Source: Streptomyces sp. SAI-127 (GTDB lineage Bacteria > Actinomycetota > Actinomycetes > Streptomycetales > Streptomycetaceae). From it: a DNA stretch of 64,000 bases. The stretch covers positions 6,716,501-6,780,500 of the forward strand of contig NZ_JARXYJ010000001.1 of the NCBI RefSeq assembly GCF_029894425.1. Reading direction: 5' to 3'. The first letter of the stretch is position 1, and each line of letters starts with the position of its first letter. Made by a program: the position numbers and the translations under genes. Shown piece by piece: positions 4,008-39,202 of the stretch. The notes beneath the pieces are model-generated. The model was given only the letters and a program-made list of their open reading frames with translations. It was not told the origin of the DNA and ran no database searches.

Positions 4008-5464
4008 CGGTACTCCGACAGCCTGCGCCCGATGCCGAGCACCGCGCCCGCCGCTCCCAGGACGGCCAGCACGGCGGCGCCCGCCGACAGGCCGGTCATG
4101 GCGCCGAGACCGTCACCGGCCGAGCGCTCGAACTCGGCCTCCTCGTGGACCAGGGCCTTGGCGAGGTTGGCGTCGACGCTGTCGAAGCACTCTCCCGTCG
4201 CCCCCTTGGGTCCTATGACCCGGTTCAGCGCCTCTTCGTAGTTGCCGTTGTCGTCCTGCGCGCGGGCCGCGGTGTGGCGCTGCTTCCACACCGTCATGTT
4301 GCCCTCGGCGGCGGTCACCGGCGTCTTGCCGCTGCTGTCGTCGGCGAGCTTCGACGCCTCGGCGAGGCCCTTGCCGAGGGTGTCCATGTCCTTGTCGAAG
4401 TCGAAGTCGTAGGCGTCGTAGGTGACGTCCACGCCCTGGGCGTTCTTCTTGGTGACCGTCTCGGCGCCGCGGGCCACGAGGGTGAGGTTCTCGTTGCCGC
4501 GGGCCTTGAGGGAGGCGATCCGGGCGTCGTGCAGCACGTTGAGCGAGCGCACTCCGTGGTCGTAGGAGTCGTTGAGCCCCGCGCGCGCGACGGTGTGGCC
4601 GACGACCAGCCACAGCAGCACCACGGTCGCCGTCGCGGTGGCCGCGACCAGGCCGTGGTTGAGTACCCGGTTGGTGCGCCGGTAGTTGCGGTGCTGGGCC
4701 CAGGCGAGCCCGGCGAGGGCCAGGACGCCGAGGCCGATCGCGGCCCACGGGTAGGGCGTGGCGTCGGCGTAGTCGGCGCGCAGCCGCTGGTTCTCGCTGG
4801 TGTAGAGGTTCTGCGCCTTCGGGAGCATCTCCTCCTGCATCTTCTCGTTGGCGTACCGCAGATAGGCGCCGCCGACCGGGAAGCCCTGGCGGTTGTACGT
4901 ACGGGCCCGCTCCACCAGACCCTTGTACTCCGGCAGCAGGGTGTTGAGCTCGGCCACGGTCTTCGCGGCGGGGGAGTCCGGGTCGGAGTTCGAGGCCGCC
5001 CTGACCAGACCGGCCGCGGCCAGGTCGATGTCCTCCTCGTACCGCTCGCGGGAGTCCGCCGTCTCCTGGCCGCCGGCGAGGAAGCCGCTGGAGGCCGCGG
5101 TGTTGGCGTCGGCCAGGTAGCGGTAGATGTCGGCGGCGGCGCTGCTGAGCGGCTGGCTCTTGTGCAGCACGTCGTCCGCGGCGGCGGCCCGGTCGTTGGT
5201 CTGCCAGGCGGTCACCGCGCCGAAGAGGACGACGAGCAGGGCGAGCGCCGCGCCGATGATGCGCAGCCGGCCCGGTTCGGTGGTGGCGGCCGCGCGCACC
5301 TGGTCGAGACCTTCCGCGAAGGCCGTACGACGGGCGGGCGCCGCGGGCAACACCGGGGCGGGCGGGGCCGGCTGGGCCGGGGGTCCCGGCTGCGGTGGTA
5401 CGGCCGGCATCGTGGGCACACCGGAATCCGGTGGTGCCGCGCTGCTCTTCGGCGGGTGTGTCAC
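4004..5464 (-). CDS. glnX: GlnX-like transmembrane sensor-relay protein
   Basis: A Pro-rich cytoplasmic N-terminus is followed by a membrane segment (IIGAALALLVVLFGAVTAW), a large extracytoplasmic region, two central membrane helices flanking AQHRNYRRTNR, a second long extracytoplasmic region and a final membrane helix near the C-terminus. This topology and the position directly before the GlnH-like gene match mycobacterial GlnX, which passes the GlnH signal to PknG. The frame opens upstream to 5527, but GTG at 5464 has a good GGAGG seven bases upstream and gives a natural N-terminus (VTHPPKSS), so I place the start there. The orthology call rests mainly on synteny and topology. Confidence 0.8.
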   Translation of the reverse strand: MTHPPKSSAAPPDSGVPTMPAVPPQPGPPAQPAPPAPVLPAAPARRTAFAEGLDQVRAAATTEPGRLRIIGAALALLVVLFGAVTAWQTNDRAAAADDVLHKSQPLSSAAADIYRYLADANTAASSGFLAGGQETADSRERYEEDIDLAAAGLVRAASNSDPDSPAAKTVAELNTLLPEYKGLVERARTYNRQGFPVGGAYLRYANEKMQEEMLPKAQNLYTSENQRLRADYADATPYPWAAIGLGVLALAGLAWAQHRNYRRTNRVLNHGLVAATATATVVLLWLVVGHTVARAGLNDSYDHGVRSLNVLHDARIASLKARGNENLTLVARGAETVTKKNAQGVDVTYDAYDFDFDKDMDTLGKGLAEASKLADDSSGKTPVTAAEGNMTVWKQRHTAARAQDDNGNYEEALNRVIGPKGATGECFDSVDANLAKALVHEEAEFERSAGDGLGAMTGLSAGAAVLAVLGAAGAVLGIGRRLSEYR

Positions 5465-24867: not shown

Positions 24868-25277
24868 CGACGCCACACGTACGCGTGGGAGTGCAGGCCA
24901 TCGTCCGCTCCGGCGGGCGCGTCCTGCTGGGGCTGCGGGTCAACACCTTCGGCGCCGGCAGCTGGGGGCTGCCCGGTGGGCATCTGGAGATCGGCGAGAC
25001 GCTGACCGGTGCCGCGTGCCGGGAACTCGAGGAGGAGACCGGCGTCCGTGCCCGCGGCGCGCGCGTCGTCTGTGTCACCGACCCGGACCCGGCCGCCAAC
25101 CATCACATGCAGGTCGGTGTGGAGATCCCCGACTACACGGGCGAGATCCGGGTGCGTGAGCCGGACCGGTGCGAGCGCTGGGAGTTCTGGCCGCTGGACG
25201 CGCTGCCGACGCCGTTGTTCGTGGGCTCGGTGGAAGTGCTGCACAAGGTCAGGGAAGGGGCACTTCTCCCCTCCTGA
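24864..25277 (+). CDS. NUDIX hydrolase coupled to radical SAM gene
   Basis: The 137-residue protein contains a complete Nudix box running from GGHLEIGETL to CRELEEETGV (G-x5-E-x7-RELEEETG). Its ATG overlaps the stop of the radical SAM gene. It would hydrolyse a nucleoside diphosphate-linked substrate with Mg2+. The last 29 bases overlap, tail to tail, the 3' end of the TPR/PLD-like gene on the other strand. Pairing with a radical SAM enzyme suggests it removes or processes a product of that enzyme; this is inference. Confidence 0.9.
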   Translation: MTTPHVRVGVQAIVRSGGRVLLGLRVNTFGAGSWGLPGGHLEIGETLTGAACRELEEETGVRARGARVVCVTDPDPAANHHMQVGVEIPDYTGEIRVREPDRCERWEFWPLDALPTPLFVGSVEVLHKVREGALLPS

Positions 25278-26970
25278 CACTCGCCCTCATCCGCACGGAG
25301 GCGAGCGCCCCCATCTCCGACCGCAGCGCGGCCTTGTGCTGTTCCTGGTTGGCCTCGAACTCCCTGAAGGTGCTGGAGAGTTCCCACTGCGCCCGGAACT
25401 CCTCCAGGCTGTCCGCGTAGTACCGGCTGTCCTTGCGGAACTCCACTTCGAAGACGCTCATGCCCCGTCGGGTCCGGCGCTGCGGATTCGACGTGATGTA
25501 CGGCTCGAAGAACCCGACGTTCGACGTGAGCAGGGTGGAGCCGCTGACGTCGAGGGAGGTGATCCGCAGCTCGATCAGGTCCGGGTACATCGACTTGAGC
25601 AGCTGGTACGACTCGACCACGGGCAGGAAGGTGTTGTTGTACGACGGGCTGCTCTCCACCAGTTCCACGATGTTCTGGTAGTTGCCCGGTTCGGCGGCGG
25701 TGTCGTGCGGCATGAAGGCGGCGAGGCTGTTCCACGGACTGCTGATGACCACGTTGAACCGGACCCCGCGCTCCAGCGCGTCCTTGACCCGGCCGTAGAA
25801 GAGCCGTGTCTCCTTCAGGAAGTAGGAGGCGCCGGCGTGGGCGATGAGCCGGATGATGCCGGTCTCCTCCTCCAGCGCCCTGCGCTTCGCGTCGTTGCGC
25901 TCGGTGTTCTGGTGGGGCTTGTACACCCTCTCGATGTGGTACGGGAGTTCGTCGTCCGCAGTGATGGCCGCCCGCATGTCCGCGAGTTCGTCCTGCAGGA
26001 TGTGCGTCTGGGGATGTTCCTGGCCGAGGTCGGGAGAGGTGACGGCACGGGTGGCGGCGGTGACGAAGGCCTGCACGGCGGCCTCCGTGCGTTCGTTGGC
26101 CTGCCCGTCCCAGCCGCCCGCCGCAGCGAACTCCGTGGCGGCGAGGGTGGCTTGGGCGATGATCGTCTCGCGGTGTTCCAGGCCGAGTGTCACCTGCGCG
26201 GTGACGTACAGGAGTTCCAGGGCGGCCAGGTTCTCGAGGCCGGGGTCCAGGTCGTGGCGTGCCGCGGCCAGTGCGACGCGGGCGCCGAGGGCCCGGGCGT
26301 GGTCGCCGCCCTCGCTCTCGACGAACCGGGTCACCGACTGGTCGAAGCTGTCCACCGCGTTGTGCAGTTCCTGCTCGTCGCCGGACGCCCTGGCGAGGTC
26401 CAGGCGGACCCGGTCGGCGGTCAGCCGGGTCTCCAGATCCTTGTCCTGTTCGTACTTGAGCGAGTCGAGCGCCTTGTTGGCCCAGATCGCGGCCGCGTCC
26501 GGATCGCCCAGCTGAAGGCTCACGACACTCAGGTTGGCGAGGATGGCCGGGACCTCATAGGTCTCGTACTCGTGGGCGCGGGTGAGCGCGCAGTCCAGTA
26601 CGGCCATGGCCCGCACCAGGTCACCCTGTTCGGCGAGCAGGGAGCCGAGGTGGTTCCAGAGTTCGGGCTCCCGGTAGACGACCTGGTCGATCTCGGAGAG
26701 CCGCATGGCGCGCAGCGTCGTGTCGGTCAGGTCCATCGCGGCCTTGTCGAGGCCGAGCGCGAGCAGCAGTTCGACCAGGTGGGCGTACCGGGCGATCCGC
26801 TCCGGTTCGTCCTCCCACACGGCCTGTCCGCTGCGCAGCCGGTCCACGTAGCTGATGAGCGCCGCTTCGGACTCCCGTGCGGAGGACTGCTTTTCCGTGC
26901 CGCCGTCCTCGTGTTCCGCCTTTTCCTCGGCGATCGATATCGCTTCGTCGAGGTCATCGATTTCGGTCAT
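25249..26970 (-). CDS. TPR-like repeat protein with C-terminal PLD/DUF5919-like domain
   Basis: The 573-residue protein has an acidic N-terminus and about 300 residues of TPR-like helical repeats (units such as LGSLLAEQGDLVRAMAVLDCAL and LSVVSLQLGDPDAAAIWANKAL). A separate C-terminal domain of about 200 residues follows (RLIAHAGASYFLKETRLFYG, FNVVISSPWNSLAAFM, TLLTSNVGFFEPYI), whose pattern resembles phospholipase-D-like/DUF5919 folds without obvious HKD catalytic motifs. It starts three bases after the trypsin-like gene, so they are one operon. Repeat scaffold plus effector-like domain is a layout common in conflict and stress-sensing systems; the actual function is unknown. Confidence 0.75.
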   Translation of the reverse strand: MTEIDDLDEAISIAEEKAEHEDGGTEKQSSARESEAALISYVDRLRSGQAVWEDEPERIARYAHLVELLLALGLDKAAMDLTDTTLRAMRLSEIDQVVYREPELWNHLGSLLAEQGDLVRAMAVLDCALTRAHEYETYEVPAILANLSVVSLQLGDPDAAAIWANKALDSLKYEQDKDLETRLTADRVRLDLARASGDEQELHNAVDSFDQSVTRFVESEGGDHARALGARVALAAARHDLDPGLENLAALELLYVTAQVTLGLEHRETIIAQATLAATEFAAAGGWDGQANERTEAAVQAFVTAATRAVTSPDLGQEHPQTHILQDELADMRAAITADDELPYHIERVYKPHQNTERNDAKRRALEEETGIIRLIAHAGASYFLKETRLFYGRVKDALERGVRFNVVISSPWNSLAAFMPHDTAAEPGNYQNIVELVESSPSYNNTFLPVVESYQLLKSMYPDLIELRITSLDVSGSTLLTSNVGFFEPYITSNPQRRTRRGMSVFEVEFRKDSRYYADSLEEFRAQWELSSTFREFEANQEQHKAALRSEMGALASVRMRASVRRGEVPLP

Positions 26971-26973
26971 CGA

Positions 26974-27672
26974 TCAGTTTCCTTCTGACGGACGCCGGGC
27001 ACGCCGGTTCGGTTCGGTCCTCGTCCAGCGCGGGCGCACACTTCCGTATCCCCTGTCGTGCAGAACCTGGTTGGCCCGGGTGCGCTTTTCCGCCTTCTTG
27101 CCACCGGTGACGTCGTTGAACAGCCTGAGCGCCTCAGTCACGGAAATGGCGAAAGCCTCGTCGCTCTCGCGGGGAGAGGCGTCCCGGGGTTTCACCAGCA
27201 GACCGAGGACGACCGGCGGGTCCTGGCGGGTCTCCTCGATCGGGCTGCCGGCGTAGGCCGCCGGGTCGCGCAGGACGCGCTCGCAGCGCAGCCGCAGGGC
27301 CGTCACCGTGAGGTGGGGACTGTCGTGGTAGACGGCTTCCGGTTCGACGACGCTGCCCGTCAGGGGCTTGGGGTCGACGGAGACGGTCGCCCGCCAGGAC
27401 TGGCCCTGGTGCGCCTCACCGAAGGCGGTCGTCGCCAACGGGCCCGTGGTGCCGTTCAGTTCGAGTCTGAGCAGGGCGAGGTCCGACGGTGTGTTGCCCC
27501 AGAGGATGTGCGCGGGTGTTCCGTCCCGCAGATGCAGGAGCGGCTTCGTGGTGAGGACGTCCGGCCCGAGCGCGTGGGCGGTCGTCAGCGCGAAGGGCCG
27601 TGCGATACGCAGGCCGGACGCGATGCGCCTGCCCGCGAGATATAACTCGATCAAATGCTCGTCCCGCGCCAT
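26974..27672 (-). CDS. trypsin-like protein with altered nucleophile site
   Basis: The 232-residue protein has a chymotrypsin-fold layout without a signal peptide: His33 in LTTAHALGPD, Asp64 in PSDLALLRLEL, and where GDSGGP is expected the sequence is AYAGSP (residues 139-144), followed by VVLGLLVKP. The aligned nucleophile position is Ala, so it may be a pseudoprotease, or the Ser two residues later may serve. A basic C-terminal tail (RTRANQVLHDRG onward) is Arg-rich. Intracellular trypsin-like modules next to TPR proteins are typical of multi-gene conflict systems in streptomycetes. Coupled to the downstream TPR gene by a three-base gap. Confidence 0.7.
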   Translation of the reverse strand: MARDEHLIELYLAGRRIASGLRIARPFALTTAHALGPDVLTTKPLLHLRDGTPAHILWGNTPSDLALLRLELNGTTGPLATTAFGEAHQGQSWRATVSVDPKPLTGSVVEPEAVYHDSPHLTVTALRLRCERVLRDPAAYAGSPIEETRQDPPVVLGLLVKPRDASPRESDEAFAISVTEALRLFNDVTGGKKAEKRTRANQVLHDRGYGSVRPRWTRTEPNRRARRPSEGN

Positions 27673-27730
27673 GTCCGGCCCCCGTCTGTTCCGCTGCGCG
27701 TTCCAGAAGTCTCACCCGGAAAGAAGAATG

Positions 27731-28360
27731 TTAACCGCGGTCAGAGTTCCGCGACGCCTTCTTCCCGATGACTGTTTCCCATGAGGCGGAGGAGCCGGAT
27801 GTGGTCACGCTCAGTTTGATTCCGAGGAAGCGGCCGGCCGGTAACCGTCTGGATCCCGGTCGTTCGCCGTGGATGTCGGCCAGCAGCAGCGCGAGGAGTT
27901 CGCTGTCGGCCTCCTCCGCCTCCTCGACGCGTTTGGTGAACTTCTTCCACAGGCCGTCGGCCTGGCTGGGGAGACGGACGGCGGCACCCTGCTCATGCCA
28001 CTCCTCCCAGGCCTCCAGCCACCGCTGCATGCCGTCGAACGACTTCTCGCAGGCCTCGCGGAGCCGCTCGGAACTGTAGAGCTCGATACGTGCCGCCAAC
28101 GCGGCCGCGGAGTGCAGGGCCTCGCTGCGCACGCCTTCCAGTTCCGGGAGGTCGAAGCTGCGCCGGGTGTGGGCGCGGAGCTGGGCGTAGGTGTGCACGG
28201 TGCTCATGAGGTCGTCGTACGTGGCCACCCGGCGGTCCCAGAGCCGCCGTTCCCGTTCGCGTCTCGACGTCGCCCGCTGGGTGATCCAGGCCGCGCTGAG
28301 GGTGGCCGTCGCGCCCAGTGACGTACCGATGATCGCGGCCTCTGCCGGTGTGATGCGCAC
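27731..28360 (-). CDS. membrane-anchored helical protein, unknown function
   Basis: This is a 209-residue protein with one N-terminal membrane helix (ITPAEAAIIGTSLGATATLS) followed directly by a basic Arg-rich segment (RATSRRERERRLWDRR) and a mostly helical cytoplasmic body (AQLRAHTRRSF, MQRWLEAWEEWHEQG). The topology fits a small inner-face membrane anchor. It is the first gene of a three-gene minus-strand operon, 58 nt before the trypsin-like gene. No family recognised with confidence. Confidence 0.7.
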   Translation of the reverse strand: MRITPAEAAIIGTSLGATATLSAAWITQRATSRRERERRLWDRRVATYDDLMSTVHTYAQLRAHTRRSFDLPELEGVRSEALHSAAALAARIELYSSERLREACEKSFDGMQRWLEAWEEWHEQGAAVRLPSQADGLWKKFTKRVEEAEEADSELLALLLADIHGERPGSRRLPAGRFLGIKLSVTTSGSSASWETVIGKKASRNSDRG

Positions 28361-28430
28361 GCCGTCATGATGAGGTGGTGGCGGGGGCGGACGGAACTGC
28401 TACGGCGTCGTGGGTCTCCGGGAGGCCTGG

Positions 28431-28940
28431 TCACTCCGGTGAGTTCTGGGCCCCTTCCAGCAACTCACGCAACAGATCGGCCAGTTGGCCGGCCTGTTCG
28501 TCGTCGAGGGTGGACAGGGCCGCCGTCTGGGGTGCCAGGCCCGCTCCCACCGCCTCGTCGATGACGGTCAATCCCTTCTCCGTCAGGGTCACTTGGAGGC
28601 CTCGGCGGTCGTGGGGGTCGGGGGAGCGGCGGAGGAGGGCGGCGCGTTCCAGTTTGTCGAGGCGGCCCGTCATGCCGCCCGTGGTGAGCATCAGCGTCGA
28701 GGAGAGCTGGCGGGGGGAGAGCGTGTACGGCTCGCCGGCCCGGCGGAGGGTGGCGAGGACGTCGAATTCGCCGCGGGAGATGCCGTAGGGGGCGTACGCC
28801 TTCTCCGCGCGGTCGCCCATGGCGCGGGAGAGGCGGTAGATCCGCCCGAACACCTCCATGGCCCTGGTGTCGAGGTCGGGCCGCACGGCCGCCCACTGGT
28901 CGATGATCGCGTCGACGGCGTCCTTGCGCTGTGCACTCAT
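28431..28940 (-). CDS. MarR-family transcriptional regulator
   Basis: The 169-residue protein has the MarR winged helix (ISRGEFDVLATLRRAGEPYT, then LSPRQLSSTLMLTTGGMTGR) and the DPHDRRGLQVTLTEKG wing. The frame is open upstream, but MSAQRKDAVDAIIDQW at ATG 28940 is the natural start. It is divergent from an EamA transporter with a perfect palindrome between them, indicating control of the transporter and itself by a small-molecule ligand. Confidence 0.92.
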   Translation of the reverse strand: MSAQRKDAVDAIIDQWAAVRPDLDTRAMEVFGRIYRLSRAMGDRAEKAYAPYGISRGEFDVLATLRRAGEPYTLSPRQLSSTLMLTTGGMTGRLDKLERAALLRRSPDPHDRRGLQVTLTEKGLTVIDEAVGAGLAPQTAALSTLDDEQAGQLADLLRELLEGAQNSPE

Positions 28941-28992
28941 GTGCCGAGTATCCGCAGGCTTCCGGTCGCCCGCAAGAAAGTTGCTTGTGGAA

Positions 28993-29016
28993 AAGTAGCT
29001 TAGAGGTAAGCTACTT
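28993..29016. promoter_or_regulatory. MarR-type operator palindrome
   Basis: AAGTAGCTTA (28993-29002) and TAAGCTACTT (29007-29016) are perfect inverted repeats with a 4-bp centre, located between the divergent marR and eamA genes, 29 bp before the transporter start. This is typical MarR operator geometry. Confidence 0.8.
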
Positions 29017-29044
29017 GCTGCCAAGTCAGCGATGAGGGGGAACC

Positions 29045-30094
29045 GTGAGTACACCGACCAGGAACCGCACCGCCACCGTCCTCCTCACCGCTCTCGCGCC
29101 CGTCTCCTGGGGCACCACCTACGCCGTCACCACCGAGTTCCTCCCCGCCGACCGTCCCCTGTTCACCGGAATGATGCGCGCCCTGCCCGCCGGACTGGTG
29201 CTGCTCGCCCTCGCCCGGGTGCTGCCGCGCGGGGTCTGGTGGGGCAAGGCGGCCGTGCTCGGGGCGTTGAACATCGGGGCCTTCTTCCCGTTGCTGTTCC
29301 TGTCGGCGTACCGGCTGCCGGGCGGGATGGCCGCGGTGGTCGGGTCGGTCGGACCGCTGATCGTCGTCGGGCTGTCGGCGGTGCTGCTGGGGCAGCGGCC
29401 CACGGCCAGGAGCGTGCTCACCGGGCTCGTGGCCGCGTTCGGCGTCAGCCTGGTCGTGCTCAAGGCGGCCGGTGCCCTGGACGTCGTCGGGGTGGCGGCG
29501 GCGTTCATCTCCGCCGCCTCGATGTCCGCCGGCACCGTGCTGACCAAGCGCTGGGGACGCCCCGACGGCGTGGGCCCGCTAGCCCTCACCGCCTGGCAGC
29601 TCACCGCCGGTGGCCTGCTCATCGCGCCCCTCGCCCTCCTCGTCGAGGGAGCCCCGCCCGCCCTCGACGGCCGTGCGGTCGGCGGCTACCTCTACCTCGC
29701 GCTGGCGAACACGGCGGTGGCGTACTGGCTCTGGTTCCGCGGCATCGGCCGTCTCACCGCCACCCAGGTCACCTTCCTCGGCCCGCTGTCCCCGCTGACC
29801 GCCGCGGTCGTCGGCTGGGCGGCGCTCGGGCAGAGCCTGACGCCGGTGCAGTTGGCGGGCATGGCCCTGGCCTTCGGGGCGACGGTGGCGGGCCAGCTGG
29901 GGGCGCGGCCCACTGCCGACCGGTCGTTCGGCCCCGCGGAAAGCAACCGCCGAGAGGCAGACCTGGCGGGTCCGGTGCCGCGGTGGCAGGGGGGTGAGGG
30001 TGCGGGAAGCGCTGCGGGTCGGGGGTGTGGCCCGCTGCCGGCTGGTCGTTCGGCCTCGCTGGAGGCGACCGTCGAGGGGCTTCGGCAGACCTGA
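29045..30094 (+). CDS. EamA/DMT-family transporter with repeat-derived C-terminal tail
   Basis: The 349-residue protein has ten predicted membrane helices in two EamA halves (residues 1-145 and 150-285; SWGTTYAVTTEFLPADRPLF is the typical start). It probably exports a metabolite or drug. After about residue 290 (GQLGARPTADRSFG) the sequence loses membrane character and becomes a Gly/Ala/Arg-rich tail encoded by the tandem repeat tract; the stop lies inside the first complete repeat. The original stop was therefore probably lost or displaced. Regulated by the divergent MarR protein. A short 7-8 base leader separates it from a GAGGGG ribosome binding site. Confidence 0.88.
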   Translation: MSTPTRNRTATVLLTALAPVSWGTTYAVTTEFLPADRPLFTGMMRALPAGLVLLALARVLPRGVWWGKAAVLGALNIGAFFPLLFLSAYRLPGGMAAVVGSVGPLIVVGLSAVLLGQRPTARSVLTGLVAAFGVSLVVLKAAGALDVVGVAAAFISAASMSAGTVLTKRWGRPDGVGPLALTAWQLTAGGLLIAPLALLVEGAPPALDGRAVGGYLYLALANTAVAYWLWFRGIGRLTATQVTFLGPLSPLTAAVVGWAALGQSLTPVQLAGMALAFGATVAGQLGARPTADRSFGPAESNRREADLAGPVPRWQGGEGAGSAAGRGCGPLPAGRSASLEATVEGLRQT

Positions 30095-30300
30095 GGTGTG
30101 CGGCGCTGCGGCAGACTTGACGGGTCAGGTGCCGTGGTGGCAGGGATGCGAGGGTGCTGGAAGCTCTGCGGGTCGGGGGTGTGGCCCGCTGCCGGCTGGT
30201 CGTTCGGCCTCGCTGGAGGCGACCGTCGAGGGGCTTCGGCAGACCTGAGGTGTGCGGCGCTGCGGCAGACTTGACGGGTCAGGTGCCGTGGTGGCAGGGG
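29902..30300 (+). repeat. 154-bp tandem repeat tract behind eamA
   Basis: Positions 30012-30145 are repeated exactly at 30166-30299 (134 identical bases, period 154). A diverged earlier copy starts near 29902 inside the eamA coding sequence. The tract runs straight into a dehydrogenase remnant at 30302. Confidence 0.85.
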
Positions 30301-30301
30301 C

Positions 30302-30520
30302 GCGAGGACGTTCACCGTCGAGAAGCTCGCCGCGGTCAACCCGGCCATCGACGAGAGCGCCGTCCAGGGCATCATCGACCACCTCGCCGGGATGCGCATG
30401 ACCCGCCGCAACCCCACCCTCGCCGAGGTCGCCGCCACCGCCGTGTTCCTCGCCTCCGACCACGCGGGCGGCATCACCGGCACGTTCGTCAACGCCACCG
30501 GCGGGATGGTCAGCGTCTGA
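30302..30520 (+). pseudogene. C-terminal remnant of a short-chain dehydrogenase
   Basis: In frame to the TGA at 30518 the sequence reads RTFTVEKLAAVNPAIDESAV, then HLAGMRMTRRNPTLAEVAAT, then ITGTFVNATGG, the characteristic C-terminus of SDR-family oxidoreductases (about 72 codons). The N-terminal Rossmann part with the TGxxxGxG motif and the YxxxK catalytic pair is absent; the tandem repeat tract takes its place. It overlaps the 3' end of the M50-type gene by 11 bp. No start codon or ribosome binding site was seen. Confidence 0.75.
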
Positions 30521-31676
30521 GCCCGCGGCCCCGCCACCACGTGCGCAGCCACAGGGCGTGCAGCCCGCCGAGCGTGACGACGACGGCGATCCCGTCCAGC
30601 CGGTCCCACACCGACCGCCCGGTGCCCGCCTCGACCACCGCGCGGGCGAACAGCGTGAGGTCCGCGGGCAGGGTGACGGCCGCGAAGAACGCGAGACACA
30701 GCGTGGTGCCGACGACCAGCACCACGCTGTACACCCGTACGGCCCGCCGTTCGTGCACGGGCAGTCCGAGGCTGGGGTCCCGGTCGTCGCTACGGCGGCC
30801 CCGGCGCCCCAGCAGGCGCCGGGCCCGGTACTTCGTGTACGCCACCCCGTCCCCGAACAGATCGCGGCAGCGCGTGAGGTCCTGGAGGACGAAGTACAGG
30901 TCCGTGCGCAGGAAGACCAGGAGCTGGAAGGGGAGCGGAAGCAGGGCGAGCAGGGCCACGGCGGCGAGGACACGGCGGGGTGTGCCGGTCGTGACGCCCG
31001 CGGCGAGGGCGGCCAGGCAGGCGGCCGTCAGATTGGTCGCGATGCCGGCGAGGTAGGCGGTCAACCGGTGTCGGCGCGGGGCGAGTTCGATCCCGCTGAT
31101 GTCCGTCTGCATCACCAGGAACTGCAGCCGGGTACCGAGCCGCATCCGCCCCGCCACGCCGGTCGCGCGAGCGGTCAGCAGATGGGCGCACTCGTGGAGC
31201 AGCAGCAGGCTCCAGCCGACGGCCGCGCCGAGGGCGAGGACCGCGCTGCCGTGCGAACTCCACAGCAGCGTCCGGTGGTCGAGCGGCACCGGAGGGCGGG
31301 TGAGCAGGGTGACCGCGATCAACAGGACGACCGCCACGAGGACAGCGGGACTCAGCAACCAGCGCACATGACGGGGCCGTATCCATGCCAGGGTCGGTGT
31401 CGGCGGCGGCTCCTGGTCGATCACGCGGCCGTCGACCTCCGCCACGAAACCGAGCCCGAGCAGGGCCTCCACGAAGTCCGGTACGTCGACGTCGTGGCCG
31501 GTGCGGGCGCGGAGCCGTTCGCCGACCTCGGCCGGGGGCAGGCCCTGGCCGAGCAGGTCCAGGGCCTGTTTGCCCACCTCGGGCAGGGCGACGAAACGGC
31601 CGGTCGCCCTGCGGCCCACGATCCACTCGTCGCCGTCGGGGCGGGAGTCCAGCGCGTGCAGCCGCACCCGGTTCAC
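30510..31676 (-). CDS. M50-like membrane metalloprotease with N-terminal PqqD/RRE-like domain
   Basis: The 388-residue protein starts with a soluble wHTH-like domain (residues 5-85; GRFVALPEVGKQALDLLGQG, VPDFVEALLGLGFV) resembling PqqD/RiPP recognition elements. It continues with several membrane helices and a zinc-protease motif HECAH (161-165) at the end of a helix, with TDLYFVLQD further on, as in putative peptide zinc metalloproteases. GTG at 31676 overlaps the stop of the ThiF-like gene (GTGA). It is therefore coupled to an E1-like enzyme and lies opposite two tiny peptide genes, which suggests maturation or export of a modified peptide. Function inferred from context. Confidence 0.82.
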   Translation of the reverse strand: MNRVRLHALDSRPDGDEWIVGRRATGRFVALPEVGKQALDLLGQGLPPAEVGERLRARTGHDVDVPDFVEALLGLGFVAEVDGRVIDQEPPPTPTLAWIRPRHVRWLLSPAVLVAVVLLIAVTLLTRPPVPLDHRTLLWSSHGSAVLALGAAVGWSLLLLHECAHLLTARATGVAGRMRLGTRLQFLVMQTDISGIELAPRRHRLTAYLAGIATNLTAACLAALAAGVTTGTPRRVLAAVALLALLPLPFQLLVFLRTDLYFVLQDLTRCRDLFGDGVAYTKYRARRLLGRRGRRSDDRDPSLGLPVHERRAVRVYSVVLVVGTTLCLAFFAAVTLPADLTLFARAVVEAGTGRSVWDRLDGIAVVVTLGGLHALWLRTWWRGRGLRR

Positions 31677-32968
31677 ACGCGCTCCCCGCACGCCGGGCAG
31701 TCCAGGTGGCGTGGAGTGCGCTGGTGGACGGGGTCGCCGGGGAGCATGAGGTTCACGCCGAAGCGGAAGCCCGGCTCCATCGCGGGCACCCCGGTCAGCA
31801 GGGCGAGGGCGGCATGCGCGAGCAGGGCTCCCGAGAGACCGGCGGTGACGGCACTCGCCGGGTTCCACGGCATCCGCGGCGAGGCGACCTCCGGGTCCTG
31901 TCCCGGCCCGAGCCGCAGATCCCGCCGGGCGATCTCCCCGTCCCGCAGACACTCCCAGCAGGCCCCCTGCCCGGGCACGTACACCCCGGCGGTCACGAGA
32001 GGCCCCCGGTAACCGGCGTCCACCCACGGCAATCCGGCCGCCAGACAGACCCGGTTGGCCCACCGCCGGATCGCGTCCGGGCGGTCGGCGGCGAGGACGA
32101 GGAGGTCGTAGGGGGACGGCGGGAGAGCAGAGGCGGGCGTCGACGAGGCGACCGCTCGCCCGGGCCCGTCGGCGGTCTCGGCCGGCGGGTCGGCGGCTCC
32201 GAGGGTTCCACCGGGTCTGCGGCGCTCCACGGCGGCCCTCACCGGTGGTGGCCCGCCCGGGGGTCGTCCCGCCTGTCGTGATCCGGCCACCAGCTCCGCC
32301 AGGTCTTCCGGCCCCGCCACCTCCCTCCGCTCCCCGGTCACCGTCACGTCCGAGTTCAGCGCCCGCAGGGTCGCCACCGCCGCCTCCACCTTCGGCCGGC
32401 CGAGGTCGGACTCGCGGTACAGGGGCTGGCGGTTGAGGTTGGAGAGCTCGACCGTGTCCGGGTCGACGCAGTGGACGTGTCCCACCCCGGAGGCGACCAG
32501 GGCCTGGGCCGCGTGGCCGCCGGTGCCGCCGACCCCGATCAGCAGGACGCGGGCCTCGCGCAGGCGGAGCTGGGCGTCCCAGGGGCCGGTGCGGGGGGTG
32601 AGGTCCATCCAGCGCAGGAGGGGGACGCCACGGCTGTAGCGGTCCTCCTCGCGGGGCGGCACCGGCACCGACGCCCGGGCGTCGTCCACGAAACCGGCGG
32701 CCAGCAGGTCGGCCATCGCCTGGCGGGCGTCATCGCCGGACAGCTCCGGGTGGGTGCGCAGGACCTCGGCGACCACCTCCGACGGCGCCCGCGACCCGTC
32801 CATCGCCTCGACGAGCGTCCACACCCAGCCCTGCGGATCCGCGATCTCCGCGCCGATGCCGTGGATCACGCTGCCGACGCGGACGTTGCCGTCGACCGTG
32901 CGGTAGGCGCGGTGCTCGGGCTTGATCCGGGGCCGCCCGAACGTCTCGACCGTCACCGCCTCCGTCAC
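31673..32968 (-). CDS. ThiF/E1-like adenylyltransferase with N-terminal RRE-like domain
   Basis: The 431-residue protein has a PqqD-like winged-helix N-terminus (about residues 20-100), an E1/ThiF nucleotide-binding domain (GVGGTG 145-150, CVDPDTVELSNLNRQ with the Arg finger, GRPKVEAA) and two CxxC pairs for zinc (CWECL, CPACG at the C-terminus). An unusual Pro/Gly/Ala-rich insertion of about 60 residues (from roughly 230) interrupts the E1 domain. ThiF-like enzymes adenylate a peptide or protein C-terminus or activate side chains, as in microcin C7 and azole-forming partners. GTG at 32968 has GGAGAGG upstream. Divergent from two small peptide genes that are its likely substrates. Confidence 0.85.
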   Translation of the reverse strand: MTEAVTVETFGRPRIKPEHRAYRTVDGNVRVGSVIHGIGAEIADPQGWVWTLVEAMDGSRAPSEVVAEVLRTHPELSGDDARQAMADLLAAGFVDDARASVPVPPREEDRYSRGVPLLRWMDLTPRTGPWDAQLRLREARVLLIGVGGTGGHAAQALVASGVGHVHCVDPDTVELSNLNRQPLYRESDLGRPKVEAAVATLRALNSDVTVTGERREVAGPEDLAELVAGSRQAGRPPGGPPPVRAAVERRRPGGTLGAADPPAETADGPGRAVASSTPASALPPSPYDLLVLAADRPDAIRRWANRVCLAAGLPWVDAGYRGPLVTAGVYVPGQGACWECLRDGEIARRDLRLGPGQDPEVASPRMPWNPASAVTAGLSGALLAHAALALLTGVPAMEPGFRFGVNLMLPGDPVHQRTPRHLDCPACGERV

Positions 32969-32999
32969 CGCGGCCCCTCTCCTTCACACGTACACCTTC

Positions 33000-33091
33000 T
33001 TGACACTCTGACCCCACCGGCACAGCCTTGACAAGAGCGGTCGGCGATCGCTTCGGGATGATCAAATCCCGTACAGCAGCGAGGAGTTGGG
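33000..33091. promoter_or_regulatory. divergent promoter region of the peptide locus
   Basis: The 123-bp spacer between thiF-like and peptide genes holds two TTGACA hexamers on the plus strand (33000-33005 and 33028-33033) and GAGGAG (33081-33086) as ribosome binding site of the first peptide. No convincing -10 could be assigned. Confidence 0.4.
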
Positions 33092-33169
33092 ATGCCGGAA
33101 GTGATCGTGATCCGCCCCTTGGACAAGAAGGAGACCACGGGGGAGAGCGGCGGCAACGGCGGCAGCTGA
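33092..33169 (+). CDS. 25-residue putative RiPP precursor peptide A1
   Basis: ATG at 33092 with GAGGAG five bases upstream opens a 25-codon frame ending at TGA 33167-33169. The peptide begins MPEV, continues with IVIRPLDKKETTG and ends in a Gly/Ser/Asn-rich tail (ESGGNGGS). There is no cysteine. The twin gene downstream conserves the central block with different codons (TTG/CTG, AAG/AAA, ACG/ACT), evidence of selection on the peptide. Neighbouring RRE-like proteins, an E1-like enzyme and proteases suggest it is a modification substrate. Which residues are modified is unknown. Confidence 0.75.
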   Translation: MPEVIVIRPLDKKETTGESGGNGGS

Positions 33170-33180
33170 GAGGAGCTCAC

Positions 33181-33255
33181 ATGCCTGTCAAGATCGTGAT
33201 TCGCCCGCTGGACAAGAAAGAGACCACTGGGGACAGTAATTCCCAGGGTGCTTGA
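33181..33255 (+). CDS. 24-residue putative RiPP precursor peptide A2
   Basis: ATG at 33181 with AGGAG seven bases upstream opens a 24-codon frame, only 11 nt after peptide A1. It begins MPVK, shares IVIRPLDKKETTG with A1 and ends in a tail rich in Ser, Asn and Gln (DSNSQGA). Duplication followed by divergence only at the ends resembles paired precursor peptides whose middle is read by a recognition domain or is the modified core. It lies 28 nt before the carboxypeptidase gene. Confidence 0.75.
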   Translation: MPVKIVIRPLDKKETTGDSNSQGA

Positions 33256-33283
33256 TCGGACCACCAGCGTTCGGAGGACCGGC

Positions 33284-34531
33284 GTGCGGACTTCGCTCTA
33301 TCCGGCAGTCGACGAACTGGAGCGAAGGGCCCGCACGCTGGCCCGCGCCGCCCCCGGCCTGGTGCGGCTCGGCCAGGTCGGGGAGAGCCGGGCGAGGCGC
33401 CCGCTGTGGCTGCTGTCCGCCGGACACGGCGACCGCCACATCCTCTCCGTCGCCGGCGCCCACGCCAACGAACCGGTGGGCGGGGCCTCGGCGTTGCGGC
33501 TCGCCGCCCTGTTCGCCCGCCGGCCCGGCCTGCTCGAACGCCTCGGCTGCACCTGGCACTTCCTGCTCTGCCTCGACCCCGACGGGGCGCACCTCGCGCA
33601 CGGCTGGCAGCCGGAGGAGCCGGAGCCGTCCCTGACGGAATGCCATCGGTACTTCTACCGGCCCGCGTTCACCCTCCAGCCGGAGTCCCTGCCCATGCCT
33701 CCCGGCAGGCCGCTCCCCGAGTCGGCCGCCCTGGTCGAGCTCCTCGACGAGCTGCGGCCGGTCGCCCAGTTCACCCTGCACGGCATCGAGTTCGGCGGCG
33801 CCTTCGTGATGATGACCCGGGAGGTACCGGGGGCCGCGGACGCCTTCCGGGAGACGGCGGCGCGGCTGCGCGTCCCCGTCGACCGCCACCCCGTCGACGG
33901 CCCCGACTGGCGGCTCGACCCGCCCGGCGTCCTGGTGCTGCCCGACGGCCACGGCGAGGGCGAACGCGACCCGAGCGGGTTCGTCGCCGAGAGCACCTGG
34001 TTCCATCCCCGCCGCCACGGCACCCTGACCACCCTGATCGAGGCCCCCGCCTGGGCCGTGCCCTCGGTGAGCGACGCCCGGCCCGTCACGGACCCGGACC
34101 GCGAGACCGCGCGGCTGAGCGAGGTGCTGCTGGGCCGGAGCCAGGAGCTGGCGGCCGTGCTCGGGACACGGCTCGACGCGGCCGTACCGGAGGATCTCGC
34201 GCCGCTGCGGGACGCCGCGCGGGAACTCCTCGACGTGGCGCCGTCGATCGTGGCGAGCTGGGCCGCGGAGCCACCCGGGCGGTTCCACGGCCACTTCGCG
34301 ACCCGGGGCATCTCGGCCCGCCGGATCCCGCTCAGGGTGGCCGCGATGGCGAGCCGCGCCCTGGCCCGCACCGATCCCCGGGCGGCCGAGATCCTCGACG
34401 ACCTGGTGCGCGAGTGGAGCCGGGAGCTGGAGAAGACCTACGACCTGCGGTGGGTGCCGGTGGCCGTGCAGACCGGGCTGCACGTGCGGACGATGCTCAA
34501 CACGGCCCGGCTGGTGTGCGGGGGAAGCTGA
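33284..34531 (+). CDS. M14-family zinc carboxypeptidase
   Basis: The 415-residue protein has the M14 zinc ligands His60 and Glu63 in GAHANEPVGG, His166 in FTLHGIEFGG and a candidate catalytic Glu253 in TLIEAPAW. There is no signal peptide, so it probably acts in the cytoplasm. GTG at 33284 is chosen because GGAGG sits six bases upstream; the frame is open a further 36 nt into the peptide A2 gene. It is co-directional with the two peptides and would trim the C-terminus of the modified product. The 3' end is followed by a tract of degenerate copies of its own last 40 bases. Confidence 0.85.
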   Translation: MRTSLYPAVDELERRARTLARAAPGLVRLGQVGESRARRPLWLLSAGHGDRHILSVAGAHANEPVGGASALRLAALFARRPGLLERLGCTWHFLLCLDPDGAHLAHGWQPEEPEPSLTECHRYFYRPAFTLQPESLPMPPGRPLPESAALVELLDELRPVAQFTLHGIEFGGAFVMMTREVPGAADAFRETAARLRVPVDRHPVDGPDWRLDPPGVLVLPDGHGEGERDPSGFVAESTWFHPRRHGTLTTLIEAPAWAVPSVSDARPVTDPDRETARLSEVLLGRSQELAAVLGTRLDAAVPEDLAPLRDAARELLDVAPSIVASWAAEPPGRFHGHFATRGISARRIPLRVAAMASRALARTDPRAAEILDDLVREWSRELEKTYDLRWVPVAVQTGLHVRTMLNTARLVCGGS

Positions 34532-34935
34532 GGACGGCTGGGGTGCGCGTGTGCCGATGCTGCGGACGGTCGGGTTGCGCGTGTGCCGATGCTGAGGACG
34601 GCCGGGGCGCGCGTGTGCCGATGCTCAACACGGCCGGGCTGGTGTGCGGGGGAAGCTGAGCACGGCCGGGTTGCGCGTGTGCCGATGCTGCGGACGGTCG
34701 GGTTGCGCGTGTGCCGATGCTGAGGACGGCGAGGTTGCGCGTGTGCCGATGCTGAGGACGGTCGGGTCGCCCCTGCGGGTGATGCTGAGGACGGCCGGGG
34801 CGCGCGTGTGCCGATGCTCACCACGGCCGGGCTGGTGTGCGGGGGAAGCTGAGGACGGCCGGGGCGCGCCTGCGGACGATGCGGCGGACGGCCCGGGGCG
34901 CGCCTGCGGACGGTGCTGGGCACCGCCCGGCTGGT
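34532..34935 (+). repeat. degenerate tandem repeat tract behind the M14 gene
   Basis: About 400 bp made of about a dozen imperfect units of 30-36 bp around GCGCGTGTGCCGATGCTGAG. Three longer units (near 34621-34660, 34813-34853 and 34910-34947) copy the 3' end of the M14 coding sequence (CGGCTGGTGTGCGGGGGAAG). No gene is supported here despite open frames. Confidence 0.8.
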
Positions 34936-34941
34936 GTGCGC

Positions 34942-34973
34942 GGGAGGCGGATGACCGGGGTCACCCGCCTCCC
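34942..34973. terminator. bidirectional terminator hairpin
   Basis: GGGAGGCGG (34942-34950) pairs with CCGCCTCCC (34965-34973); the loop contains a second stem TGACC-GG-GGTCA. It separates the repeat tract from the convergent pepN gene, whose stop is 9 nt away. Confidence 0.85.
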
Positions 34974-34981
34974 GCCGTGTC

Positions 34982-37558
34982 CTACTGCCCGGCCTGCGCG
35001 TCCGCGGCCTGGGCCTTCAGCGCTCGCTCCACGCCCGCGCGGGACTCGGAGACGAGCCGCCGCAGGGCCGCGTTGGGCTCGGCCGAGGCCAGCCAGGCGT
35101 CCGTCCTGTCCAGGGTCTCCCGGGAGACCTGGAGCGAGGGGTAGAGGCCGACCGCGATCTGCTGGGCGATCTCGTGCGAGCGGGACTCCCAGATGTCCTT
35201 GACCACCTCGAAGTACTTGTCCGTGTACGGCGCGAGCAGCTCACGCTGATCGGTCTGGACGAAGCCTCCGATGACGGCCTCCTGGACGGCGTTGGGCAGC
35301 TTGTCGGACTCGACGACCTGTGCCCAGGCCTCCGACTTCGCCTCCTCGGTCGGCCGCGAGGCACGGGCGGTCGCCGCATGGCGCTCGCCCGCCGCCGTCT
35401 TGTCCCGCTCGTACTCGCCGGCGATCTCCGACTCGTCGTAGCGGCCCACGGCGGCCAGCCGCTGGACGAACGCCCAGCGCAGCTCGGTGTCGACGGCCAG
35501 GCCCTCGACGACCTCCGATCCGCCGAGCAGTCCCTCCAGGAGGTCCAGCTGCTCCGGCGTACGGGCCGTCGCCGCGAACGCCCGCGCCCACGCCAGCTGG
35601 TGGTCGCTGCCCGCCGCCGCGGACCGCAGATGGGCCAGCGTGGCGTCGGTCCAGCGGGTCAGCAGGGCCTCACGGGCGGTGGGGGCGGCGTACAGCTCGA
35701 TCGCCAGCTTCACCTGCCGGTGCAGCGACTGCACGACACCGATGTCGGACTCCTTGCCGATACCGGAGAGGACCAGCGAGAGGTAGTCGCGGGTCGCGAG
35801 CTCCGCGTCCCTCGTCATGTCCCACGCCGACGCCCAGCACAGCGCGCGCGGCAGCGAGGACTCGAAGTCGCCGAGGTGCTCGGTCACGAAGGCCAGCGAC
35901 TGGTCGTCGAGGCGGACCTTGGCGTACGACAGGTCGTCGTCGTTGAGGAGCACGACCGCCGGACGGCGCTTGCCGACCAGCTGCGGTACGGCCGTCAGCT
36001 CGCCGTCGACGTCCAGTTCGACGCGCTCGTCGCGGACCAGCTTGCCGCTGGCGTCGTCGAGTTCGTAAAGGCCGACCGCGATGCGGTGCGGACGCAGGGT
36101 CGGCTCACCCTTCGCGCCCGCGGGCAGCGCCGGGGCCTCCTGGCGGATCGCGAAGGAGGTGATGACGCCGTTCGCGTCCGTCTCGAGCTCCGGGCGCAGG
36201 ATGTTGATGCCGGCCGTCTGCAGCCACTTCTGCGACCAGTTGCCCAGGTCGCGTCCGGACGTCTCCTCCAGCGCGCCCAGCAGGTCGGACAGGCGGGTGT
36301 TGCCGAACGCGTGGCGCTTGAAGTACGCCTGCACGCCGCCGAAGAACTCGTCCATGCCGACGTAGGCGACGAGCTGCTTGAGGACGCTCGCACCCTTGGC
36401 GTACGTGATGCCGTCGAAGTTGACCAGCACGTCGTCCAGGTCGCGGATCTCGGCCATGATCGGGTGCGTGGACGGCAGCTGGTCCTGGCGGTACGCCCAC
36501 GTCTTCATGGAGTTGGCGAACGTGGTCCAGGAGTGCGGCCACCGGCTGTCCGGGGCGTACGCCTGGCAGGCGATGGAGGTGTAGGTGGCGAACGACTCGT
36601 TCAGCCACAGGTCGTTCCACCACTCCATGGTGACCAGGTCGCCGAACCACATGTGGGCCAGCTCGTGGAGGATGGTCTCGGCGCGCATCTCGTACGCGGC
36701 GTCCGTCACCTTGGACCGGAAGACGTACTGGTCGCGGATGGTCACCGCGCCGGCGTTCTCCATCGCGCCCGCGTTGAACTCCGGCACGAACAGCTGGTCG
36801 TACTTCTTGAACGGGTACGCGTAGTCGAACTTCTCCTGGAACCACTCGAAGCCCTGCCGGGTCACCTCGAAGATGGCGTCCGAGTCGAGGTGTTCCGCGA
36901 GCGAGGGGCGGCAGTAGATGCCCAGCGGGACGGACTGGCCGTCCTTCTCGTACACGCTGTGCACGGAGTGGTACGGGCCGACGATCAGGGCCGTGATGTA
37001 CGACGAGATCCGCGGGGTCGGCTCGAAGACCCAGACGTCGTCCTTCGGCTCCGGCGTCGGGGAGTTGGAGACGACGGTCCAGCCGTTCGGCGCCTTCACG
37101 GTGAACTGGAAGGTGGCCTTCAGGTCCGGCTGCTCGAACGAGGCGAAAACGCGGCGGGCGTCCGGCACCTCGAACTGGGTGTACAGATAGGCCTGCTGGT
37201 CGACAGGGTCGACGAAGCGGTGCAGGCCCTCACCGGTGTTGGTGTATGCGGCGTCGGCGACGACCCGCAGGATGTTGCGTCCCTCCAGCAGGCCCGGCAG
37301 GGCGATACGGGAGTCAGCGAAGACCTCCGCCGGGTCGAGGGCGTCCCCGTTCAGCGTCACCTCGTGGACCGTGGGGGCCACCAGGTCGATGAAGGACTCG
37401 GCGCCGTTCTCGGTGACGTCGAAGCGCACCGTGGTCACGGACCGGTAGGTACCGCCCTCCTGCGCGCCGGAGAGGTCGAGATCGATCTCGTAGGACTCGA
37501 CGCTGAGCAGCGTCGCCCGCTGCCGAGCTTCGTCGCGAGTCAGGTTTGTGCCAGGCAC
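34982..37558 (-). CDS. pepN: aminopeptidase N (M1 family)
   Basis: The 858-residue cytoplasmic metallo-aminopeptidase starts MPGTNLTRDEARQRATLL and has the substrate-anchoring GAMEN motif (FNAGAMENAGAVT) and the zinc site HELAHMWFG with the third ligand in LWLNESFA. The ERAP1-like C-terminal domain is complete. It removes N-terminal residues from peptides in amino-acid recycling. A second, similar-length paralogue occurs at 54.4-57.0 kb. Confidence 0.95.
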   Translation of the reverse strand: MPGTNLTRDEARQRATLLSVESYEIDLDLSGAQEGGTYRSVTTVRFDVTENGAESFIDLVAPTVHEVTLNGDALDPAEVFADSRIALPGLLEGRNILRVVADAAYTNTGEGLHRFVDPVDQQAYLYTQFEVPDARRVFASFEQPDLKATFQFTVKAPNGWTVVSNSPTPEPKDDVWVFEPTPRISSYITALIVGPYHSVHSVYEKDGQSVPLGIYCRPSLAEHLDSDAIFEVTRQGFEWFQEKFDYAYPFKKYDQLFVPEFNAGAMENAGAVTIRDQYVFRSKVTDAAYEMRAETILHELAHMWFGDLVTMEWWNDLWLNESFATYTSIACQAYAPDSRWPHSWTTFANSMKTWAYRQDQLPSTHPIMAEIRDLDDVLVNFDGITYAKGASVLKQLVAYVGMDEFFGGVQAYFKRHAFGNTRLSDLLGALEETSGRDLGNWSQKWLQTAGINILRPELETDANGVITSFAIRQEAPALPAGAKGEPTLRPHRIAVGLYELDDASGKLVRDERVELDVDGELTAVPQLVGKRRPAVVLLNDDDLSYAKVRLDDQSLAFVTEHLGDFESSLPRALCWASAWDMTRDAELATRDYLSLVLSGIGKESDIGVVQSLHRQVKLAIELYAAPTAREALLTRWTDATLAHLRSAAAGSDHQLAWARAFAATARTPEQLDLLEGLLGGSEVVEGLAVDTELRWAFVQRLAAVGRYDESEIAGEYERDKTAAGERHAATARASRPTEEAKSEAWAQVVESDKLPNAVQEAVIGGFVQTDQRELLAPYTDKYFEVVKDIWESRSHEIAQQIAVGLYPSLQVSRETLDRTDAWLASAEPNAALRRLVSESRAGVERALKAQAADAQAGQ

Positions 37559-37700
37559 GCGGTCATCTCCTCGTTATGTCTAGGTTCGGCGGTTCGGTCA
37601 TCCTTCCATGTGACCCGCGTCGCCGGGAGCCGCCGCCCACCCCGAACACCAGGTCCGTATTCCGCCGGTCGTCCGCGCGCGCCCGCGCCAGCCTGATCCC

Positions 37701-39202
<1,502 letters not shown>

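Follow-up and report, generated by a model that had tools for sequence, protein, structure and literature searches.

RiPP recognition elements (RREs) occur in roughly half of the classes of ribosomally synthesized and post-translationally modified peptides (RiPPs) made by prokaryotes. In microcin C7, the precursor MccA is a peptide of seven residues ending in Asn. The few characterised members of the ThiF-like RiPPs each do different chemistry, and a network of 27,400 RRE-ThiF candidates holds several further groups that may encode new chemistry (PMC12150305). In the pantocin A system, PaaP has a core of two Glu and one Asn, a follower and an FXXLXXRI leader, and it needs the oxygenase PaaB; EnfB, the enterofaecin enzyme, requires a (V/I)RKA leader motif (PMC12250964). 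On the protease side MpaP, an M50 protease of the daptides fused to an RRE, is said to remove the leader (PMC10036551). Here we describe a locus related to these systems, located in a window of 64,000 nucleotides of Streptomyces sp. SAI-127 (assembly GCF_029894425.1, contig NZ_JARXYJ010000001.1, positions 6,716,501 to 6,780,500). The locus (30510-34531 of the window) encodes two very short peptides, a ThiF/E1-like enzyme, an M50 protease and an M14 carboxypeptidase. From sequence analysis we consider it likely to be a RiPP biosynthetic locus of the ThiF-like kind, in which two precursors would yield two products from one enzyme set. The association of an RRE-E1 enzyme with an RRE-site-2 protease, joined by M14 in one part of the loci, apparently constitutes an undescribed family. 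The features of the locus are as follows.

33092..33169, + strand: precursor peptide 1, 25 aa, MPEVIVIRPLDKKETTGESGGNGGS; match to the precursor profile, E 4.9e-14
Within peptide 1: putative leader MPEVIVIRPLDKKETTG and tail ESGGNGGS; the border between them is a guess
33104..33142, + strand: peptide 1 copy of the 13-residue leader block IVIRPLDKKETTG, constrained in relatives; proposed RRE-binding motif
33181..33255, + strand: precursor peptide 2, 24 aa, MPVKIVIRPLDKKETTGDSNSQGA; match to the precursor profile, E 1.1e-14
Within peptide 2: putative leader MPVKIVIRPLDKKETTG and tail DSNSQGA; here too the border is a guess
33193..33231, + strand: peptide 2 copy of the same block IVIRPLDKKETTG, likewise constrained in relatives and likewise a putative RRE-binding motif
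31673..32968, - strand: RRE-ThiF (E1-like) adenylyltransferase, 431 aa, from family matches, profile and fold
Within 31673..32968, - strand: residues ~12-96, RRE (PaaA-like N domain), from profile and fold
Within 31673..32968, - strand: residues ~130-430, adenylation domain with GxGGxG, R180, K193, D295 and CxxC...CxxC
30510..31676, - strand: RRE-M50 membrane metalloprotease, 388 aa, with HECAH and RTDLYF; its GTG start overlaps the ThiF stop (GTGA)
Within 30510..31676, - strand: N-terminal ~82 residues, RRE/PqqD-like, from fold and profile
33284..34531, + strand: M14 zinc carboxypeptidase, 415 aa, from family matches; H60, E63, H166 and E253 invariant in 19 relatives
32969..33091, no strand: divergent intergenic region between ThiF and peptide 1, 123 bp, from reading of the sequence

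The first-pass annotation of this DNA, made by a model from the letters alone, had pointed out two tiny frames with ribosome-binding sites that share a block differing at synonymous positions, and described them as free of cysteine. All of this holds. Both frames are preceded by a GAGGAG ribosome-binding site ending 5 bases before the ATG. In the common block 5 of the 13 codons differ and every change is silent; with no residue changed, this gives a picture of selection acting on the peptide. Neither peptide contains Cys, and the two tails lack Trp as well. When the whole 10.7 Mb genome was searched with the peptide profile, which itself includes both window peptides, matches at E <= 0.01 were found at these two frames only.

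The association of the peptide with ThiF was analyzed in both directions. For the forward scan one genome per species was searched with an alignment of 20 ThiF relatives as query, and the best 80 of at least 546 stretches encoding a ThiF relative were retained; nearer relatives are over-represented, since these are the best-scoring loci. In 63 of the 80 loci, no more than 4.5 kb separate ThiF from a small frame that carries the leader motif (I-x-[IV]-R-x-L-D-[KR]-x-E-T-[TA], or a close variant of it). This count is partly fitted, because the regular expression was broadened stepwise after misses, and the profile search is the less biased test. The frame is found on either strand, before or after ThiF, which indicates that the peptide is kept and not its position. 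For the reverse search a profile of 20 peptides (containing the two of the window and one of genome G014, locus L003) was run against 81 genomes of the genus. Ten genomes, each with a single locus, account for its 14 matches, and a ThiF gene is present within 1.5 kb of 13 of the 14 matches, corresponding to 9 of the 10 loci. Both searches covered 25 genomes (G000-G024); the three in which ThiF was found (E <= 1e-30) are also the three with the peptide: G000, G014 and G016. The first-pass annotation had staked its RiPP interpretation on the conservation of the small frames; this interpretation is supported, as the motif frame tracks ThiF both forward and in reverse. The exceptional locus, in genome G043 (L096, L102), is apparently a relic: its peptide has Pro at the position of the invariant Leu, M14 aligns over no more than its first 105 of 415 residues, and ThiF was not found within about 6 kb.

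The precursor alignment consists of 68 distinct peptides (without L001 and L004, which are duplicates, and without the MIEFIE frames described below) and reveals a constrained leader pattern, I-x-I-R-x-L-D-K-x-E-T-T. Its first columns are occupied by Ile in 63 peptides, Ile or Val in 68, Arg in 67 and Leu in 68; these are followed by Asp (55) or Glu (6) and Lys (53) or Arg (11), and the pattern closes with Glu (64), Thr (62) and Thr (59). The tail following ETT is rich in Gly, Ser and Asn and contains 6 to 13 residues, 8 or 9 in 53 peptides. Proportions of nonsynonymous (pN) and synonymous (pS) differences, uncorrected and pooled over all pairs, which are not independent, amount to 0.22 and 0.50 for the 12-residue leader, and to 0.46 and 0.48 for the tail, where tails of equal length were compared. 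A leader that is held while the tail drifts is the pattern of a RiPP leader and core. Ser or Thr is present in 65 tails, Cys in 15, Trp in 5 and Lys in 5. Most of the 63 loci encode a single precursor (56, against five with two and two with three), so that the twins appear as a local state of the Streptomyces canus group and a few others. Many precursors of Streptosporangiaceae carry about 15 to 22 extra residues ahead of the motif. A Microtetraspora precursor has nine database relatives, seven called "hypothetical protein" and two without a name. One variant precursor, in which the motif is followed by IETKAVSR, was noticed beside ThiF and M50 around position 5442 of locus L103 (genome G095).

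The nearest named relatives of the ThiF protein are from Streptomyces canus (94% and 93% identical). Pfam ThiF matches it with E 4.6e-41, PaaA-like_N matches below its cut-off, and the ThiF models of NCBIfam remain far below theirs (TIGR03882: 19.3 bits for a cut-off of 36.9). With a profile of 20 relatives the top match is PaaA (E 2.1e-33), in an alignment that begins at the N-terminus and extends over the first half of the ThiF domain; MccB comes second (E 2.2e-30). The AlphaFold2 model has a mean predicted local distance difference test score (pLDDT) of 75.7 with a disordered inserted loop (231-280); its residues 13-90 form four strands and three helices, the plan of an RRE, and among PDB structures MccB is the best fold (E 2.6e-23), followed by PaaA. 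GxGG, R180, K193, D295 and the four Cys are invariant in 20 sequences, and R180, K193 and D295 align with NxxRQ, K and AD of MccB. In EnfB, Arg167 and Lys180 bind ATP and Asp225 coordinates Mg (PMC12250964); the mapping of these residues onto the window protein is our own. Taken from its sequence and predicted structure, the protein is an N-terminal RRE followed by an intact adenylating domain, nearest to MccB and PaaA, and the RRE suspected earlier is recovered at this N-terminus by both profile and fold. At E <= 1e-40 there are 801 matching proteins among 7998 scored.

The M50 gene starts at a GTG (31676-31674) overlapping the ThiF stop (31675-31673), and reading of the sequence bears out the proposed GTGA coupling of ThiF to an HECAH protein. 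Pfam M50 was detected in 30 of 30 relatives at E <= 0.1, and H162, E163, H166, T259 and D260 are invariant (in a numbering one higher than that from the true start). The model (mean pLDDT 93.4) has strands within residues 5-33, helices at 34-76 and a strand at 79-82, followed by the membrane helices, which bear HECAH. The first three rows of the fold search are TbiB1 with leader peptide (probability 1.00, E 0.04-0.06). Lower rows include TigE, a sactisynthase and ThcOx (probabilities 1.00, 0.96 and 0.91), among unrelated low-probability matches; the matched parts of these three are presumably RREs. The profile search also places TbiB1 first (E 0.022), so that the same RRE is named by two methods. 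Judged from profile and predicted fold, the N-terminus is therefore probably RRE-like, and specifically TbiB1-like, which would make it a second RRE of the locus.

Downstream of the two frames, the announced M14 carboxypeptidase is indeed present, with a revised start: the likeliest is the GTG at 33284 behind a GGAGG, not the mechanical start at 33248. Profile matches are metallocarboxypeptidases (best E 2.5e-9). The invariant H60, E63, H166 and E253, which we take to be the zinc and catalytic set of M14, indicate that the zinc site is intact. The presence of M14 parallels the C-terminal end of the precursors. The penultimate residue is Gly in 28 of 28 distinct peptides from M14 loci versus 19 of 40 without M14, and the last residue is Asn in 2 of 28 versus 23 of 40; Asn thus ends 25 of the 68 distinct relatives, 23 of them from loci without M14. 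On the tree of 81 ThiF proteins, M14 requires 5 changes and Asn 6, with one independent pair on well-supported branches and five on all branches, which gives the link no support. As independent changes are few and descent may explain it, we keep this link as a lead only.

In the reading that we prefer, the RRE of ThiF would bind the precursor leader, and its adenylation domain would activate a carboxylate of the tail with ATP, most likely the C-terminal one. The activated carboxylate would then be captured within the tail, as an amide, imide or ester, or be kept as a nucleotide conjugate. The M50 protein would bind the same leader through its own RRE, cut at the membrane and release the core. 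M14 would act at the C-terminal end, before or after these steps, trimming the last residue behind the penultimate Gly; another option would be the destruction of leaked product as self-protection. A more precise version can be formulated, with an E1 reaction and an order of maturation that would both be new. M14 would begin by trimming behind the fixed penultimate Gly, and RRE-ThiF would next adenylate the exposed Gly carboxylate, in the way that E1 enzymes treat ThiS, MoaD or ubiquitin; the ring would be closed by a Ser, Thr or Asn of the tail, and RRE-M50 would release it at the membrane. We regard this detailed scheme as decidedly unlikely. The ring would be small and closed without Cys, Trp or Lys, and where M14 is absent the C-terminus would serve just as encoded, often with Asn.

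Several observations weigh against the preferred reading. The script found no frame in 15 of the 80 loci and a different one in two, both Amycolatopsis (MIEFIEV.RETTFSSPTQQS). Among the 15, L013 is cut at its start by the end of a contig. Visual inspection suggests short frames upstream of ThiF in L049, L050 and L060 and, with a ribosome-binding site, in L063, L075, L083, L084 and L087, and shows no clear frame in L040, L042, L081, L082, L085 and L086. M50 is beside 39 of the 80 ThiF loci and was not found near 41; M14 is beside 29, mostly from Streptomyces and Actinacidiphila, and was not found near 51 (up to 7 kb on each side of ThiF, some loci being cut by contig ends). Neither protease is therefore obligatory, or else they act from elsewhere. 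On the ThiF tree M50 requires 14 changes. Concerning its RRE, Pfam PqqD matches only 12 of the 30 M50 relatives at E <= 0.1, and no PDB fold matches the M50 model at E 0.001 or better. No exporter is encoded within 30510-34531. Finally, the tails have no conserved nucleophile, so the bond formed cannot be named.

Other readings of the same genes were weighed against these data. As MccB is the nearest fold, ThiF might link the C-terminal residue to a nucleotide, AMP or another one, and so produce a Trojan-horse antibiotic of the microcin C type. The 25 relatives ending in Asn, as MccA does, would suit this chemistry, and so would the MFS protein found just ahead of the precursor, on the same strand, in the Microtetraspora locus L061. 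However, the window precursors end in Ser and Ala, Asn is nearly absent from peptides of M14 loci (the 2 of 28 given above), and the contrast between Asn and M14 is not independent of descent. There is also no MFS gene among the eight neighbours scanned in the window (25249-39193, two of them matching no family; this set is meant wherever neighbours are mentioned below). MccB chemistry as described uses a C-terminal Asn (PMC12150305). We find this nucleotide chemistry rather unlikely, and similarly doubtful the role that M14 would then have, that of an immunity carboxypeptidase removing the toxic end in place of MccF. The constant Gly before the last residue at M14 loci suggests a different use of the E1-like enzyme: M14 would expose a C-terminal Gly, ThiF would adenylate it and the peptide would be joined to another molecule or protein, in the manner of a ubiquitin-like tag. 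Canonical E1 substrates end in Gly. A peptide of 24 residues is, however, too short to adopt the ubiquitin fold. The neighbours include neither an E2- nor a JAB-type family, the Gly may be shared by descent, and the RRE suggests an E1 enzyme of the RiPP branch. A tag of this kind is very improbable.

We give scarcely any credit to the small frames being regulatory leader ORFs of the M14 gene: in the window they do lie just upstream of M14 on the same strand, yet M14 was not found at 37 of 66 precursor loci (window included), the frame occurs on either side of ThiF, and what is conserved is the amino-acid sequence, whose codons change silently. The weak TIGR03882 match could evoke a docking protein for a YcaO-type azoline-forming enzyme encoded elsewhere in the genome, an idea to which we attach practically no weight. 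The adenylation residues are intact, and the Pfam YcaO model detects 0 YcaO genes in this genome, whereas it rings in 5 of 14 control genomes; the earlier statement that no YcaO enzyme is present is borne out genome-wide, and as far as this model reaches the docking hypothesis is refuted for the window genome. An anti-phage E1-E2 system was also dropped, given that the PADLOC E1-E2 models cover nothing beyond the ThiF core (E down to 1.2e-14) with neither E2 nor JAB among the neighbours. More generally, no family assigning these genes to another pathway, the other point on which the first-pass annotation had staked its proposal, was encountered: the matches are generic (ThiF, M50, M14, PADLOC E1-E2). 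No Rfam match was obtained at E <= 0.1 across 29500-35500, and an RNA element was accordingly dropped. A consensus scan of 32900-33300 revealed no sigma-70-type promoter in the ThiF/peptide 1 intergenic region.

Beyond the locus, Pfam identifies on one side a TPR protein, two proteins without match, a MarR regulator and an EamA transporter (29045-30094), and on the other an M1 aminopeptidase, a DUF1203 protein and a semialdehyde dehydrogenase. The EamA gene and the M1 gene are each found in 7 loci, window included, and look for this reason like neighbourhood; the distance from the end of EamA to M50 is, however, just 0.4 kb, and the transporter may or may not belong to the locus. A 154-bp tandem duplication (29956-30263, 94% identical) covers the 3' end of the EamA gene, and the residues encoded after it, at ~30300-30521, suggest what is left of the C-terminal part of a short-chain dehydrogenase. 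Behind M14, at 34459-34939, about nine degenerate overlapping copies, mostly 32 bases apart, of a sequence that includes the 3' end of the M14 gene form a local repeat array. In the other genomes, a cluster of ~200-aa proteins, of which one scanned member is DUF6879, occurs near ThiF or M50 in L041 (9872-10510) and 15 other loci; in Streptosporangiaceae and some Streptomyces it may be an additional component of the system. A cluster of ~430-aa proteins, one scanned member being MFS, is present in 11 loci. The large proteins beside the ThiF genes of Amycolatopsis and Saccharothrix look, from their sequences, like regulators of the AfsR/SARP type. The Bacillus and Brevibacillus relatives have a ThiF and M50 pair with short upstream frames (L084, ~6833; L087, ~3911), one of them Cys-rich, MKIKAKKVEKIKPTVAAGCCCCCGCC; the pair may thus reach beyond actinobacteria. 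In Nonomuraea cypriaca (L083, ~6649 and 6762), two short frames beside a distant ThiF end in WVIF and WIIF, which resembles the WIVI end of enterofaecin.

Compared with known systems, the locus has the general traits of a RiPP: short encoded precursors with a conserved leader and a variable core beside a modifying enzyme, and RREs predicted on the enzymes (for ThiF by fold and profile, for M50 with a fold probability of 1.00, E 0.04, and a profile E of 0.022). The RRE fused to a ThiF domain with an intact ATP site is the trait of the ThiF-like RiPPs. As these are a recognised group (PMC12250964, PMC12150305), the earlier statement that the locus fits no class was too strong; it fits the ThiF-like superclass and none of its characterised types. 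As in the MccB family, a ThiF/E1-like adenylation domain carries an RRE-type domain at its N-terminus, and the precursor is tiny. Unlike microcin C7, the precursors have 24-25 residues including a leader and end in Ala or Ser instead of Asn, and no MFS gene is among the neighbours. Of the profile matches, PaaA of pantocin A is the best and covers the RRE together with half of the ThiF domain, the first, but the window peptides have no EEN, neither the follower nor the FXXLXXRI leader of PaaP is seen, and no oxygenase family is present among the neighbours; PaaC is an EamA transporter, and the EamA gene of the window, as seen above, is present in 7 loci only. With EnfB of enterofaecin and IndF of indolylamide, the locus shares an RRE-ThiF and a short precursor, and (V/I)RKA of the EnfB leader resembles [IV]R[PRK]L of the present family. 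The EnfB and IndF cores are hydrophobic and contain Trp (WWIVI, NWYFI), which is absent from the window tails and present in 5 of 68 relatives; moreover IndP is an M16 protease, and EnfB and IndF are from Enterococcus and Streptococcus and come with transporters. The core Cys that GrcB-type systems use for a Glu-Cys thiolactone is missing from the window peptides, with Cys in 15 of 68 relatives. YcaO, the feature of azol(in)e RiPPs, is absent as reported above.

On the protease side, MpaP of the daptides is the best precedent, since this RRE-fused M50 is said to remove the leader. The RRE is N-terminally fused to an M50 site-2 protease in both cases and both have several short precursors. The window protein is thus of the same kind as the daptide leader peptidase without being its NCBIfam equivalog (NF041824, 23.5 bits for a cut-off of 300). 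In contrast to daptides, the neighbours include no aminotransferase, no daptide-type (Fe-dependent alcohol) dehydrogenase and no methyltransferase, no ELExMEAP leader is present and the peptides end in Ser or Ala, not Thr. Pearlins also employ M50 membrane proteases acting on peptides (TglG, TmoG; PMC10885120); they differ in releasing single modified residues from a scaffold, and no LanB-like ligase is among the neighbours. By these comparisons of features, membership in the daptide, pantocin, GrcB and enterofaecin groups was dropped.

The novelty claimed at first stands in that the family is apparently undescribed, and is reduced in that the enzyme belongs with the ThiF-like RiPPs and RRE-M50 proteins are known from daptides. 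The available main text of PMC12250964 contains none of the terms Streptomyces, M14, M50, carboxypeptidase, metallopeptidase or Actinobacteria; the set is not described in the available portions of PMC12710340, PMC7470986, PMC10885120, PMC9576775 and PMC13252029, and PMC7794033 lacks the terms asked. A search with the leader letters returned 0 papers, and among the open-licence papers listed for the gene set no title or abstract start describes it; a description may exist elsewhere. With this locus the ThiF-like RiPPs gain an actinobacterial branch that is broad and apparently has no name. As the window tails lack both Cys and Trp, whose side chains GrcB and IndF employ, an assay of one enzyme would probably reveal a new linkage. 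The locus would also bring together on one leader two RRE-bearing proteins from separate RiPP classes, an E1-like enzyme and a site-2 protease, and its simple leader motif lets further precursors be found.

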